DNA of 64,000 bases from Candidatus Desulforudis audaxviator MP104C. Its GTDB lineage: Bacteria; Bacillota; Desulfotomaculia; Desulfotomaculales; Desulforudaceae. The DNA lies in contig NC_010424.1 of assembly GCF_000018425.1 (NCBI RefSeq), forward strand, positions 1 to 64,000. The letters are read 5' to 3'. Within the stretch, counting starts at the first letter, position 1, and each line of letters starts with the position of its first letter. The translations under genes and the position numbers were made by a program. A model generated the notes under the pieces. The model worked only from the letters and a program-made list of their open reading frames with translations, had not been told where the DNA came from and did not search any database. This document shows, piece after piece, positions 54,845 through 60,611 of this stretch.

Positions 54845-55240
54845 ATGTACTCGGAAGCAGCTTTAGCGTTAATTAATGGCGTACCGGTAATCGGCGTCCG
54901 TTTCCAAGATCGTAAGCGGGCGCTGACCGAAGTCCGGAACTTGACTAAACAGGTGGCTCGCTGTGTGCGATCAGGCAGCCAGACTATGGTTCGAGTCGGT
55001 TTCAAGGCCGGGGAGGACGGTTGCTTCACTCTGGAGTTGTGTGGCGGCAGCGGGAAGATTACCGTGATTCCCGGGGTCGACGAATTGATGCTCCGGCGGT
55101 TTCAAAAGGCCTACAACGCGAAGAAGATGTTTGTGCTGACTTGTTTTGTGGATGAGGGTGCCGGGGCACCGCAGTCTCTGGTGGTTTCAGACGGTCTGGG
55201 CGTGGTCATCTACAAGCCCTGCAGGGCCTTGCAATTGTGA
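54845..55240 (+). CDS. hypothetical protein, probable late sporulation gene
   Basis: A 131-residue protein that I do not recognise. The sequence looks globular: an N-terminal helix, a basic stretch (RFQDRKRALTEVRNLTKQVARCVRSG) and a beta-rich second half with VLTCFVDEGAGAPQSLVVS. It has four cysteines and no signal peptide. The ribosome site AGGAGGG stands before ATG 54845. The sigma-K-like promoter and position after yabG suggest a spore-envelope or coat-maturation role. Confidence 0.75.
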   Translation: MYSEAALALINGVPVIGVRFQDRKRALTEVRNLTKQVARCVRSGSQTMVRVGFKAGEDGCFTLELCGGSGKITVIPGVDELMLRRFQKAYNAKKMFVLTCFVDEGAGAPQSLVVSDGLGVVIYKPCRALQL

Positions 55241-56186: not shown

Positions 56187-56359
56187 GCCCAAAATGTACC
56201 ATCAAACTCATATTTTGAATATCTGGCTAAAAGTATCTCAAGTTTACCCGATCAACCAAGCACACCAAAGGAGAGCAAAAATAGAGAGATTTGGTGCATT
56301 TGATATTCTGATGTTAAGCTTGGGTGGACAAGTCCAAATCTGGGAAAAGGAGGTCTTTC

Positions 56360-57262
56360 ATGCAGTCTGTGAACAAAAAGCTCGCCGTTGCAGTGGTAGC
56401 CCTGATGTTGTCCGTCGCCCTGTTGATTCCGGCCACCCTGGCCCACGCCAACGCACCTTCTGCGGAAGAAAGCAAGTTGATCACGGGAATAAACCAGGCC
56501 CGCCAGAAGGCGGGGGTTCAGCTTCTAACCAATAGCGCCCGTTTGAACGAGGTGGCCCTGACCCTCCTGACGAACGGAACCAGCGTATCGCTGGCGTTGC
56601 GGGAGCAAGGAATCACCTACCGGTCCGCCTGTACGCTGCGTGTAGGCTCCGGCAACGCGGATCTGGTGGTCCGGGCTTTGACCGGATACAGCTCGTCACA
56701 GGTCTTGCAGCCGCAGTACAATCAGATCGGTGTAGCTATCCGGAATAACACCACGGTGATCGTTCTAATCAACGGGGTTATTGCCGCGCAGCCGGCACCG
56801 CAAACGGCCCCGACTCCGGCACCGCAACCCGCGCCGTCGCCGGCTCCCATGCCGTCACCCGGCCCCTCCGGTTTGATGACCGCGTACGAGATGAAGATAG
56901 TTGAACTGGTGAACGCCGAGCGGGCTAAGCTCGGACTGAGGGCTCTGGCGGTTGACGCCAAGCTGTCGCAAGTGGCCCGATTAAAGTCCGAGGACATGCG
57001 GGACAAGCGCTATTTTGCCCATCAATCTCCCACCTACGGTTCGCCGTTTGACATGATGAGACAGTTCGGAATTACCTACCGCACGGCCGGTGAGAATATC
57101 GCCGCCGGCCAGCGTACCCCGGAAGAAGCCATGCGTGGGTGGATGAACTCCTCCGGGCACCGGGCCAATATCCTGAACCCCAATTTCACTCACATCGGCG
57201 TTGGGCATGTGGTCGGCGGGAGCTACGGCAACTACTGGACGCAGATGTTTATCGGCAGATAG
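56360..57262 (+). CDS. secreted CAP-domain (SCP/YkwD) protein
   Basis: A 300-residue exported protein. The signal peptide is residues 1-30 (LAVAVVALMLSVALLIPATLAHA). A degenerate first CAP-like part follows (INQARQKAGVQLLTNSARLNEVA), then a Pro/Ala linker near residues 137-166 and an intact CAP domain at the C terminus (LVNAERAKLGLRALAVDAKL; HQSPTYGSPFDMM; AGENIAAGQ; SSGHRANILNPNF). Spore-formers have several YkwD-like CAP proteins in spore or cell envelopes; catalysis is not established. ATG 56360 follows AAAGGAGG. Confidence 0.88.
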   Translation: MQSVNKKLAVAVVALMLSVALLIPATLAHANAPSAEESKLITGINQARQKAGVQLLTNSARLNEVALTLLTNGTSVSLALREQGITYRSACTLRVGSGNADLVVRALTGYSSSQVLQPQYNQIGVAIRNNTTVIVLINGVIAAQPAPQTAPTPAPQPAPSPAPMPSPGPSGLMTAYEMKIVELVNAERAKLGLRALAVDAKLSQVARLKSEDMRDKRYFAHQSPTYGSPFDMMRQFGITYRTAGENIAAGQRTPEEAMRGWMNSSGHRANILNPNFTHIGVGHVVGGSYGNYWTQMFIGR

Positions 57263-57344: not shown

Positions 57345-57421
57345 CCGGTTGACTGATCAGCACTCACACTTCCTCCTTTCAGGCCATATATTTTTGGTAG
57401 CAAATGGCGAAAGGAGGAAGT
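57345..57421 (+). promoter_or_regulatory. leader with inverted repeat before SPOCS gene 1
   Basis: CCGGTTGACTGA (57345-57356) is followed by ACTTCCTCCTTTC (57368-57380), inner GCCAT (57384-57388), ATGGC (57405-57409) and GAAAGGAGGAAGT (57409-57421). The outer pair covers the ribosome site GGAGG. A sigma-E/K-like CATATATTT (57385-57393) with AC 17 bp upstream lies in the loop. The same layout occurs before SPOCS gene 2. Read-through RNA would hide the ribosome site; RNA starting in the loop would not. Confidence 0.6.
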
Positions 57422-57425
57422 TTTT

Positions 57426-58871
57426 GTGACCCATAAACTGAAAGTCAAGGTCTTATGCCAGGAAGAAACGGTGCAGCAGGTCATCGGTGAAAAGACCGTC
57501 CAGACGGTGGTGCGCGGCGTGGTCATCATCCCGCAGCCGAAACCGCCGGCCGAGCAGATCCTGGCGGTACGGGCCCAGGTTGAAGAACAGGAAATCGACG
57601 TTATTCCCGACAAGGTTATCGTACAGGGCAAGCTCGTCCTCAACATTACCTTCGTAGCCGATATCAAGACCCAGCCAGTGCACCACGTACGCGGCCAGCT
57701 CGAATTCGCGGAATCTCTCCACATTCCCGGCACCCGGCCGGGCATGGACGTAGTGAAGCAGATCACCATCGAGAAGGTTCGGGGCGAGGTTGATCCCCGT
57801 GATTCCCGCCGGATTGTCGTGACGATGATCCTGCGCATTTTTGTTAAAGTGGTCGAAGTCGAGCCGAAACAGCTGCTGATCGACCTGCTCGGCGCCGAAA
57901 ACCGATTCAAGACGGAACCGGTCAAACTGGATGTCGTCAAGGCGGTCGGGGCGAGGCAGGTGGTGATCAGCGATCAGTTTGACGTTTTGCGGCAGTTCGA
58001 GGGCAAGAAACCCTGCCCCGAGGAAGTGCTTGATGTCATCGCCGACGTTGTGGTCACCAGGAAAGAGGTTATCCTCGAAAAGGTGATCGTGGAGGGTGTC
58101 CTGATCGTCCAGGTCATCTACGTGGCCGACTGGCCCACGCAGCCGGTGCACCACGCCCACTTCGAGATTCCCTTCACGGCGTTTGTCGAGCTAACGGGCG
58201 CCCGCCCCGGGGATATGGTCAGTGTCCAGGTGCAGATCGAGGATGTCACCACCCGAGTCAAGAACGACTGTGAGATCATGATCGCCGCCGTCCTCAACGT
58301 TAAAGCCAGGATCGTTGAGCAGATCAAGAAGAAGCTGGTAGTGCAGATCGACAAGGATCTGCTTAAATGTCTCCTGTTCGAGGACGCAATTCGGCCGGTG
58401 ATCCTGTTCCTGGACCAGATCTTGAACGAGGAAGACATGGTTCAGGTCACCATCCGCGAGGTTGTAAACATTCCGCAGCAGAAGCCGGACGCCCAGAAGA
58501 TCCTGGAAGCTATGGTCACCAACATCGAAGTGACCGAAACTGACGTAATTCCCAACAAGGTGATCGTCCGAGGCGTTGTCACCGTCAAAGTGGTGTACGT
58601 GGCCGACCGGCCCGACCAGCCGGTCCACGCTTTCACGGTTGACATTCCGTTTACCACCTTTGTCGATGTACCCGGCGCCGTGCCCGGTGCGGCGGTGAAC
58701 GTGATGGTCGACGCCGAGTTCGTGCAGGCAGCCATCGAAGACGCCCGCCGCGTCGTGATCAAGCTGGTGCTCAGGGTTACCGTCCGGGTGACCGACATTG
58801 TCCAGAGACAGGTGTTTGAATGCCTGCGGCCCGGCGCCGTGATCGAGTGTCTGCTGCCGCCCAAACCCTAG
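57426..58871 (+). CDS. triple SPOCS (DUF3794) protein
   Basis: A 481-residue protein with three SPOCS/DUF3794 repeats, each about 130-150 residues. Marker phrases are VIPDKVIVQGKLVLNITFVA (repeat 1), EKVIVEGVLIVQVIYVADWPTQPVHHA (repeat 2) and VIPNKVIVRGVVTVKVVYVA (repeat 3). SPOCS domains occur in SipL and related spore morphogenesis proteins that contact SpoIVA at the forespore surface. No LysM is present, unlike the next gene. GTG 57426 is 8 bp from GGAGG. Confidence 0.9.
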   Translation: MTHKLKVKVLCQEETVQQVIGEKTVQTVVRGVVIIPQPKPPAEQILAVRAQVEEQEIDVIPDKVIVQGKLVLNITFVADIKTQPVHHVRGQLEFAESLHIPGTRPGMDVVKQITIEKVRGEVDPRDSRRIVVTMILRIFVKVVEVEPKQLLIDLLGAENRFKTEPVKLDVVKAVGARQVVISDQFDVLRQFEGKKPCPEEVLDVIADVVVTRKEVILEKVIVEGVLIVQVIYVADWPTQPVHHAHFEIPFTAFVELTGARPGDMVSVQVQIEDVTTRVKNDCEIMIAAVLNVKARIVEQIKKKLVVQIDKDLLKCLLFEDAIRPVILFLDQILNEEDMVQVTIREVVNIPQQKPDAQKILEAMVTNIEVTETDVIPNKVIVRGVVTVKVVYVADRPDQPVHAFTVDIPFTTFVDVPGAVPGAAVNVMVDAEFVQAAIEDARRVVIKLVLRVTVRVTDIVQRQVFECLRPGAVIECLLPPKP

Positions 58872-58896
58872 CATTGATATTCGGCATGGTTGTTTT

Positions 58897-58971
58897 CCGG
58901 TTGACTGACCGGCCGCTCACACTTCCTCCTGGGAGGCATATATTGATAACAAATATGCCGAAAGGAGGAAG
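58897..58971 (+). promoter_or_regulatory. leader with inverted repeat before SPOCS gene 2
   Basis: CCGGTTGACTGA (58897-58908), ACTTCCTCCT (58921-58930), inner GGCATA (58935-58940) and TATGCC (58954-58959), then AGGAGGAAGT (58963-58972). CATATATTG (58937-58945) lies inside, with AC 16 bp upstream. Compared with the gene 1 leader, the inner stem differs on both arms in a compensating way, which points to selection for pairing. Confidence 0.6.
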
Positions 58972-58976
58972 TTTTG

Positions 58977-60611
58977 TTGAGTCAACAAGAACTAAAGGTC
59001 CGGATCGTCTGCCAGGAAGAGACCGTACGGCAGGTCATTGGAGAACAGACGGTACAGACCGTGGTCCGCGGCAAGATCACCATTCCCAAGCAGAAGCCGA
59101 AGGCTGAACAAATTCTAGCCGTCCGGGCTCGGGTCGAGGAACAAGAGATGGAAATCATCCCTGACAAGGTCATCGTCCAGGGGAAGATTGTCTTCAACGT
59201 GACCTACGTCGCGGACTTTCCGACCCAGCCGGTGCACCACGTACGCGGCCAGCTCGAATTCGCAGAATCTCTCCATATTCCCGGCACCCGGCCGGGCATG
59301 GACGTGGTAAAGCAGATTACTATCGAGAAAGTCAAGGCCGAGGTGGATCCTAAGGATCCGCAGCAGATCATCGTCACCGTGATTCTCCGCATCTTCGTGA
59401 AAGTAACCGAGGCGGAACCGAAGCAGTTGCTGATCGATCTGCCCGGCGCCGAGCGGAAGTTCGTCCGCGATGAGGTGCGACTGGATATCGTCAAAGCCAT
59501 CGGGCGCAGACAGGTGGTGGTGAGCGACCAGGTCGACATCCAGCAACTGTTCCAGGGCAAGAAACCCTGCCCCAAAGAAGTAATCGACACCATTGCCGAC
59601 ATCACGATCACCAAGAAGGAAATCATTCAGGACAAGGTGATCGTGGAAGGCGTCCTGACCGCGCAGATCATCTACGTAGCCGATTGGCCCACCCAGCCGG
59701 TGCACCACGCCCACGTGGAGATCCCGTTCACTCAGTTTGTCGAAGTGCGCGGAGCCCGCCCCGGGGATATGGTAAACGTTCAGGTGCAGATCGAAGACGT
59801 CGGCGCCCGGGTCAAGCACGAGTGTGAGATTTCAATCACCGCGGTGCTGGCGCTGCAGGCGTTCGTAATGGAGCAGATCAGGAAACAGGTCGTGGTGCGC
59901 ATTGACGACGACCTGCTGGCGTGTCTCCTGGAAGCACAGGCCATCCGGCAGATCACCCTGTTCCTGGACCAGATTCTGAACGAGCAGGACCAGGTTCAGA
60001 TCACCCTACGCGAGATCGTCACTATTCCCCAGCCGAAGCCGGATGCCGAAAAGGTGCTGGAGGCCTTCGTGACCGACGTCACGGTGACCGAGACCGACGT
60101 CATCCCTAACAAGGTAATCGTCCGGGGCGTGGTGACCGTAAAAATCACCTACGTGCGGGATGCGCCGGACCAGCAGGTGCACGCCTTCCAGGCTGAGATC
60201 CCGTTCACCGCCTTCATCGAGGTGCCAGGGGCCCAACCCGGCGCGGCGGTAAATGTAATGGCCGAAGCCGAGTTCGTTTCGGTGGGTCTGGAGGATAAGC
60301 GCCGGATCGTGGTGAAGCTGGTGCTGAAGGTTACCGCGCGGGTGACCGATATCGTGCAGAAGAAGCTGTTTGAATGCCTGCGGCCCGGGGAAGAGATCGT
60401 TTGTCCTACTATACCCCCGGTCGAGCCCAAAGTGCCGGAGAAGAAACCCACACCTACTCCCACTCCCGGCAGGACCTACGTGATTCAGCCCAGAGACACC
60501 TTCTTCAAACTGGCCCAGCGTTTCGGCACGACGGTGCAGGCCATCCAGGCGGTGAACCCGGGAGTGGATCCGAACCGCCTGCAGATCGGTCAGGTCATCA
60601 ACCTGCCCTAG
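58977..60611 (+). CDS. sipL: SipL-like protein: three SPOCS domains and a C-terminal LysM
   Basis: A 544-residue paralog of the previous gene with three SPOCS domains, then a Pro/Thr linker (EKKPTPTPTPGRT) near residue 480 and one LysM (TYVIQPRDTFFKLAQRFGTT ... INLP) at the C terminus. SPOCS plus LysM is the layout of SipL, which binds SpoIVA and drives spore-coat assembly in clostridia. LysM could bind cortex or cell-wall sugar. TTG 58977 with 8-bp spacing matches the gene 1 layout; TTG 58974 is closer. The SipL call is from domain order. Confidence 0.82.
   Translation: MSQQELKVRIVCQEETVRQVIGEQTVQTVVRGKITIPKQKPKAEQILAVRARVEEQEMEIIPDKVIVQGKIVFNVTYVADFPTQPVHHVRGQLEFAESLHIPGTRPGMDVVKQITIEKVKAEVDPKDPQQIIVTVILRIFVKVTEAEPKQLLIDLPGAERKFVRDEVRLDIVKAIGRRQVVVSDQVDIQQLFQGKKPCPKEVIDTIADITITKKEIIQDKVIVEGVLTAQIIYVADWPTQPVHHAHVEIPFTQFVEVRGARPGDMVNVQVQIEDVGARVKHECEISITAVLALQAFVMEQIRKQVVVRIDDDLLACLLEAQAIRQITLFLDQILNEQDQVQITLREIVTIPQPKPDAEKVLEAFVTDVTVTETDVIPNKVIVRGVVTVKITYVRDAPDQQVHAFQAEIPFTAFIEVPGAQPGAAVNVMAEAEFVSVGLEDKRRIVVKLVLKVTARVTDIVQKKLFECLRPGEEIVCPTIPPVEPKVPEKKPTPTPTPGRTYVIQPRDTFFKLAQRFGTTVQAIQAVNPGVDPNRLQIGQVINLP

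Follow-up and report, generated by a model that had tools for sequence, protein, structure and literature searches.

INTRODUCTION

In fold-back inhibition of the IS10/IS50 type, transcripts entering from outside hide the ribosome binding site (RBS) of the transposase gene in an inverted repeat, while transcripts from the internal promoter lack the repeat arm. In phage T4, the long early RNA of gene e hides the RBS, and a late internal promoter gives rise to a translatable RNA. Among sporulation genes, a large hairpin at Bacillus subtilis sigG (spoIIIG) was proposed to block translation of spoIIG read-through RNA, whereas transcripts of the sigG promoter are unable to form it (Masuda 1988 and Sun 1991, as described in PMC5942855).

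Sporulation needs proteins in the right compartment, and many mother-cell genes are located directly behind genes that are read earlier or in the other compartment. Here, we analyzed a window consisting of the first 64 kb of the single-contig genome (2,349,476 bp) of Candidatus Desulforudis audaxviator MP104C, for which the nearest named relative found was Candidatus Desulfopertinax cowenii. A first-pass annotation had proposed that the leaders of two paralogous SPOCS genes hide their Shine-Dalgarno (SD) sites in an inverted repeat in RNA read from upstream, and leave them free in RNA from an internal promoter.

RESULTS

Anatomy of the two SPOCS leaders

The SPOCS genes are preceded on the same strand by a ksgA-like gene, yabG (a YabG peptidase by Pfam), and an ORF for a CAP-domain protein (56360 to 57262, plus strand; Pfam CAP, E = 8e-30). 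The CAP gene, co-directional with SPOCS gene 1, is the upstream neighbor and the putative source of read-through RNA for leader 1; the terminator search found no ordinary terminator between the two genes in the 180 nt before the -35 element. The leader of the CAP gene itself (about 56280 to 56359) is conserved across the family (GAGCAAAAATAG..AGATTTG..GGTGGACAAGTCCAAATCTGGGAAAAGGAGG) and is possibly a structured RNA, without an Rfam match. SPOCS gene 1 (57426 to 58871, plus strand, GTG start at 57426) encodes three SipL/SPOCS domains and no LysM domain, while SPOCS gene 2 (58974 to 60611, plus strand) encodes three such domains and a C-terminal LysM domain, the layout of C. difficile SipL (PMC6436350). 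The start codon of gene 2 is a TTG at 58974, or at 58977 by alignment with relatives.

Both leaders, on the plus strand, place an SD-complementary arm in the spacer of a promoter-like sequence. In leader 1, the -35-like TCACA of sigma-K type (57364 to 57368) is followed by the anti-SD arm ACTTCCTCCTTTC (57368 to 57380; ACTTCCTCCT at 57368 to 57377 plus TTC to 57380), the 5′ side of an inner stem, GCCAT (57383 to 57387), and, in the hairpin loop, the -10-like CATATATT (57385 to 57392). The 3′ side of the inner stem, ATGGC (57404 to 57408), leads into the 3′ arm GAAAGGAGGAAGT (57409 to 57421; GAA from 57409 plus AGGAGGAAGT at 57412 to 57421), which contains the SD AAGGAGG (57411 to 57417), and a T-run (57421 to 57425) extends directly from the hairpin up to the GTG. 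Leader 2 has the same order, with TCACA (58917 to 58921), the anti-SD arm ACTTCCTCCT (58921 to 58930) in the spacer, an inner stem of GGCATA (58935 to 58940, overlapping the -10) and TATGCC (58954 to 58959), CATATATT in the loop (58937 to 58944), the 3′ arm AGGAGGAAGT (58963 to 58972) containing the SD (58962 to 58968), and a T-run (58972 to 58975) at the TTG start. The predicted folds of the core hairpins have energies of -27.6 (leader 1) and -27.4 (leader 2) kcal/mol. The first-pass annotation had thus placed the SD-covering repeats correctly, and the exchange of GCCAT/ATGGC for GGCATA/TATGCC, by which it saw pairing kept while the sequence changed, was found exactly where it had been located.

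The pairing exceeds what is expected by chance. The SD-complementary arms, 13 nt in leader 1 and 10 nt in leader 2, are among the longest at the 334 SD-led ORF starts surveyed in 464 kb of the genome; one other start has an arm of at least 10 nt (11 nt), at 315 of the 334 no arm reaches 6 nt, and a minus-strand match in this survey was the same palindrome read backwards. When spacers were shuffled with the -35, -10, and SD held fixed, both leaders beat the shuffles (P = 0.002; z = -4.9 and -5.1). Moreover, the pattern CACAYTT-N8-16-CATAYATT occurs at only two sites in the genome, both of which are the SPOCS leaders.

In C. difficile, sipL is under the control of sigma-E. The promoter-like elements of the SPOCS leaders, TCACA and CATATATT, lie 15 to 16 nt apart (summary form TCACA ... 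GCATATATT) and agree with the sigma-K consensus (KCACM/GCATANNNTA in B. subtilis [PMC3416734]; 15- to 17-nt spacer), the full GCATATATTA being present in G048 and G049. The -35 element is ATA for sigma-E and AC for sigma-K (PMC3789822). The -10 in the loop, described at first as sigma-E/K-like, is present in both leaders, and the AC-type -35 (TCACA) fits sigma-K better; the promoters thus appear sigma-K-like, with sigma-K preferred from the -35 and sigma-E a possible alternative. As placed from the promoter spacing, transcription would start in the loop.

Further sequence elements were noted around the promoters. A second palindrome (CCGGTTGACTGACCGG-like) lies at 58897 to 58912, and most leaders of the clade have one immediately before the -35, with the variants GCGCCGGTTAACCGGCGC in G043 and ACCGGTCAACCGGT in G048; family f4 has a different dyad, AGACAATATTGTCT, in this place. 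An activator site and a 3′-end hairpin are candidate roles for this palindrome. A repeat-like insertion (CCCTCACCCTGACCCTCTCCCAGAGGGAGAGGG) separates the SPOCS genes of G047, upstream of the second gene (L040).

Conservation and covariation in one clade

A scan of contigs with the SPOCS protein yielded only 3 close loci, and whole-genome searches were therefore used instead. Of the 113 genomes of the order, 111 had SPOCS-gene matches, and the promoter was conserved at the same spacing in nearly all leaders, the -35 being kept as CACA, CACT, or TACT. The spacer paired with the SD better than its shuffles in 18/18 leaders of one clade, which comprises eight family genomes with both paralogs and the single-copy G070 and G073. 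Among the 67 other leaders of the order, which kept the promoter and its spacing, this pairing was significant in none; the -10 was misassigned in at least seven of these 67 rows (G024, G021, G020, G016, G017, G022, and G094), in which the arm was absent by eye. In the protein tree, a 100/100 branch separates the 18 sequences with the hairpin from the others. This grouping, together with the single-copy carriers G070 and G073, suggests that the element predates the duplications, a single origin being the simplest account.

Within the clade, the arms change together. The SD itself is involved in G070, where CCTCC/GGAGG has become CCCCC/GGGGG (U-A to C-G), and the inner stem occurs as CGGCAT/ATGCCG, CAGCAT/ATGCTG, and GCCAT/ATGGC, with G-U forms in G048_1 and G049_1. 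In an unforced alignment, 84% of cells paired, versus 41 to 56% when the alignment was slid; three pairs carried double changes, a value reached by 6 of 500 shuffles. Covariation within the SPOCS family is modest because of the one shared origin and because the outer stem is constrained on both sides. An exact-pattern search of the order (CCTCCTT-N12-42-AAGGAGG) was not clearly above its reversed control, and hence no genome-wide enrichment is claimed from it.

Covariation of homologous leaders had been named at the outset as one way to check the hairpin, and relatives lacking the pairing as evidence against it. The former was borne out in the clade, where pairing is universal and compensating changes reach the SD. 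Relatives of the latter kind do exist, all of them outside the clade and mostly with an ordinary terminator instead.

Recurrence of the design at spoIIP

A covariance model built from 16 distinct SPOCS leaders recovered the 18 leaders at E values of 2e-12 or better, and a class-level search with it repeated the order set. Weaker matches preceded genes for SpoIIP, Amidase_3 (CwlD-like), DpaA, a LysM+BsuPI protein, a Gmad2 lipoprotein, and others; since the model favors pairing, these were treated as leads.

The spoIIP leaders were therefore fetched independently by protein family, giving 47 curated leaders of the order. In 40 of these, the spacer paired with the RBS better than its shuffles (median z = -3.9), although the arms differ by family (CCCCCC/GGGGGG, CCTTCC/GGAAGG, and TTTTCCCC/GGGGAAAA). 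When the 3′ sides of 12 family representatives were swapped, the native pairing was never reached (0 of 2,000 permutations; summed energy, -278 versus -212 kcal/mol). This result demonstrates strong coevolution of the arms at spoIIP. In many spoIIP leaders, the start codon (TTTATG) is paired as well, its partner being the -35 (CATAAA). The spoIIP gene of this genome carries the same design (AATCCCCCCT...AGGGGGGATT); its leader lies at about 2178370 to 2178420 on the minus strand (L241; AATCCCCCCTTTTGCGGCGTACACATCCGGAGAGGGGGGATT), with a CTG at the position of the TTG start in relatives.

The gene upstream of spoIIP in the order encodes a holin-like membrane protein (PF04020), before which forespore-type promoter-like sequences were seen by eye. 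In Bacillus/Clostridium, gpr lies upstream of spoIIP (PMC3416734), and spoIIP of C. difficile responds to sigma-F and sigma-E (PMC3789822). Outside the order, in a phylum-level sample of 30 spoIIP loci, the SD was buried in upstream sequence in 15 of 19 testable leaders by the minimum-energy fold, significantly in 9 of the 19, and other leaders had a plain terminator; a trade-off between hairpin and terminator was not significant in these 30 loci (14/6/5/5; P = 0.43). The literature searched describes no such hairpin at spoIIP or SPOCS genes, an earlier report for spoIIP in Frandsen and Stragier 1995 being possible.

Similar arrangements were observed at other genes. The same anti-SD hairpin stands in front of genes for Gmad2-domain lipoproteins of family f9 with T-rich TTG starts (L162-L165, L168, L173, and L180), and candidate anti-SD arms around a CATA-type -10 were picked up by the pairing-biased model at genes for DpaA (L175), Amidase_3 (L171/L172), and LysM+BsuPI proteins (L167/L176). 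At L149:8505-8584 (about 2148505 to 2148584), a ferredoxin gene lies behind a Crp/Fnr-like regulator gene. Its leader carries a CRP/FNR-like palindrome, followed by a hairpin in which an anti-SD arm faces the SD as the 3′ arm and the loop holds a -10-like TATTAT. Only the nearest relative retains this FNR-type leader, which is present in G047 and absent from G043 and G044.

Exchange of hairpin and terminator

In the 180 nt before the -35, 0 of 18 hairpin leaders versus 47 of 63 non-hairpin leaders have an ordinary intrinsic terminator, a nearly complete contrast, although both groups are related by descent and P values overstate their independence. The eight bases after the SD arm contain on average 5.9 T (range, 4 to 7) in the hairpin group versus 2.9 in the others, and only the former has a T-run that immediately follows the SD arm. 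Such a run is exceptional for the genome, in which the corresponding stretch at 190 GGAGG-led ORFs has 2.06 T, with only 2 of the 190 starts at 6. With this T-run present and other terminators lacking, the hairpin probably replaces the terminator, whose insulating role it seems to have assumed.

These data also give weight to the foremost alternative, namely that the hairpin serves the upstream gene mainly as its intrinsic terminator and overlaps the promoter and RBS of the next gene, the SD pairing being a by-product of the use of the SD as the 3′ arm. A stable stem is followed by a U-run, as in intrinsic terminators, and TTG or GTG starts are absorbed into the T-run in most of the 18 leaders. 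However, the loop region is long, a simple terminator scan (loop of 3 to 8 nt) does not call the SPOCS hairpin, and the pairing is kept where the T-run is poor (TCTATTT in G046_1 and G047_1; TTGTGTG in G070). Furthermore, the spoIIP leaders pair the SD, and many also the start codon, beyond what termination needs. We regard a chiefly terminating role as a serious contender, with an appreciable chance that falls somewhat below even. The favored reading is that the hairpin blocks read-through by occlusion of the SD and, probably, by termination as well.

A dyad whose arms are nearly invariant in the clade and which lies over a promoter could also be the DNA operator of a sporulation regulator (SpoIIID- or GerE-like), a position that would suit a repressor. 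One arm, however, is always the SD, the arms change together (CCCCC/GGGGG in G070), and the spoIIP leaders keep pairing with unrelated sequences where a fixed binding site predicts a fixed sequence. The operator reading was rejected because the arms covary, and we consider it very unlikely.

Predicted behavior of the two RNAs

RNA folding predicted the SD to be entirely paired in read-through RNA (unpaired probability, 0.00) in 18/18 clade leaders, with hairpins of -19 to -31 kcal/mol. In RNA from the gene's own promoter, which would lack the 5′ arm because this arm lies upstream of the -10 and the predicted start a few bases after it, the predicted unpaired probability was 0.17 to 0.77 across the 18 leaders. 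The median of 0.45 resembles that of relatives without the hairpin (0.44); this RNA, too, is predicted to be less than fully open, the lowest value being 0.17 in G048_2.

Occlusion of the SD by itself would permit the hairpin to act on every transcript, as a thermosensor or a regulated RNA switch. This is highly improbable, since the 5′ arm is upstream of the predicted start and RNA from the gene's own promoter would be unable to form the hairpin; also, Rfam gave no family match up to E = 1 between positions 55000 and 61000, and the loop has no conserved sequence beyond the promoter. Least credible of all is that the SD-like pyrimidine tract is an accident or a promoter feature without an RNA role, as might be thought from the conserved spacer length and promoter elements, for the spacer shuffles, the absence of the arm from 67 relatives with the same promoter, the inner-stem compensation, and the independent recurrence at spoIIP all speak against it.

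DISCUSSION

The architecture of the SPOCS leaders, its conservation, the covariation of the arms, and the swap with terminators can all be read from the genomes compared. We propose, with a probability of roughly 0.75, that each leader forms an insulator hairpin that encloses the mother-cell promoter of its gene, hides the SD, probably terminates transcription, and replaces a terminator. The 5′ arm would fill the -35/-10 spacer, the loop would hold the -10 and the start point, the SD would serve as the 3′ arm, and the T-run would span the gap from SD to start codon. RNA entering from upstream has both arms and would fold, with its SD hidden; we infer that it would thereby be silenced and in many cases end at the T-run as well. 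Transcripts of the internal promoter would begin in the loop without the 5′ arm and be translatable. The element would thus stand in for the ordinary terminator that relatives have upstream of the same promoter, and SPOCS protein would be kept from synthesis on stray read-through.

The core of the initial proposal, silent RNA from upstream and free RNA from within, is supported by the comparative evidence (pairing kept in 18/18, compensations, and predicted SD accessibilities of 0.00 versus 0.17 to 0.77), with the amendment that intrinsic termination may be a further, or even the main, role of the hairpin. Its further suggestion, that synthesis is tied to the proper sporulation promoter, suits gene 1 better than gene 2, since the source of RNA entering leader 2 is gene 1, whose promoter is of the same type and which is expected to be active in the same cell and at the same time. 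The hairpin of leader 2 may set dosage or may simply be inherited.

A promoter spacer doubling as an anti-SD would solve the problem of wrong read-through without extra DNA or a regulator. We tentatively extend this to endospore formers, in which the -35/-10 spacer of mother-cell promoters may serve as an insulation code of general use: genes that follow a forespore or vegetative gene (spoIIP and SPOCS/sipL-like genes, with cwlD, dpaA, LysM, and Gmad2 genes as candidates) would evolve an RBS-complementary spacer, such that wrong-compartment read-through is silent without a protein regulator. The chance that this holds is, in our view, just short of even. The idea gives clear, cheap predictions in B. 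subtilis, and operon-level RNA data would overstate where such genes are translated.

The SPOCS hairpin belongs to a known kind of device, the sigG-type read-through hairpin, and has unusually good support for a case of this kind. The hairpin proposed at sigG hides the RBS in RNA initiated upstream and cannot form in RNA from the gene's own sporulation promoter; at the SPOCS genes, the SD is predicted to be paired in upstream-initiated RNA, own-promoter RNA would lack the 5′ arm, and the pairing is under selection (18/18 versus 0/67, the compensations, and the spoIIP swap). sigG, however, is another gene in another compartment, with forespore sigma-F/G. The features of the SPOCS leaders are an arm placed precisely in the -35/-10 spacer, a T-run behind the hairpin, and a presence or absence that can be read across the phylogeny, the sigG layout being known by description. 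The spoIIP leaders are alike in having the promoter in the loop and the SD as the 3′ arm, and differ in their sigma-E-type promoter (ATA-N16-CATA) and unrelated hairpin sequences. Fold-back inhibition in IS10/IS50 follows the same logic in genes of mobile elements, and this genome has a transposase-like gene (L142:5751) of that kind, with its RBS and start codon in a strong inverted repeat, AAGGGAAACC...GGTTTCCCTTATG (L142:5670-5754, about 1305670 to 1305754). T4 gene e shares the logic as well, in the service of phage timing and with unrelated sequence. New here are the clean evidence from evolution, a promoter spacer employed as an anti-SD, and the recurrence at spoIIP, and the device is more widespread than the first-pass annotation suggested.
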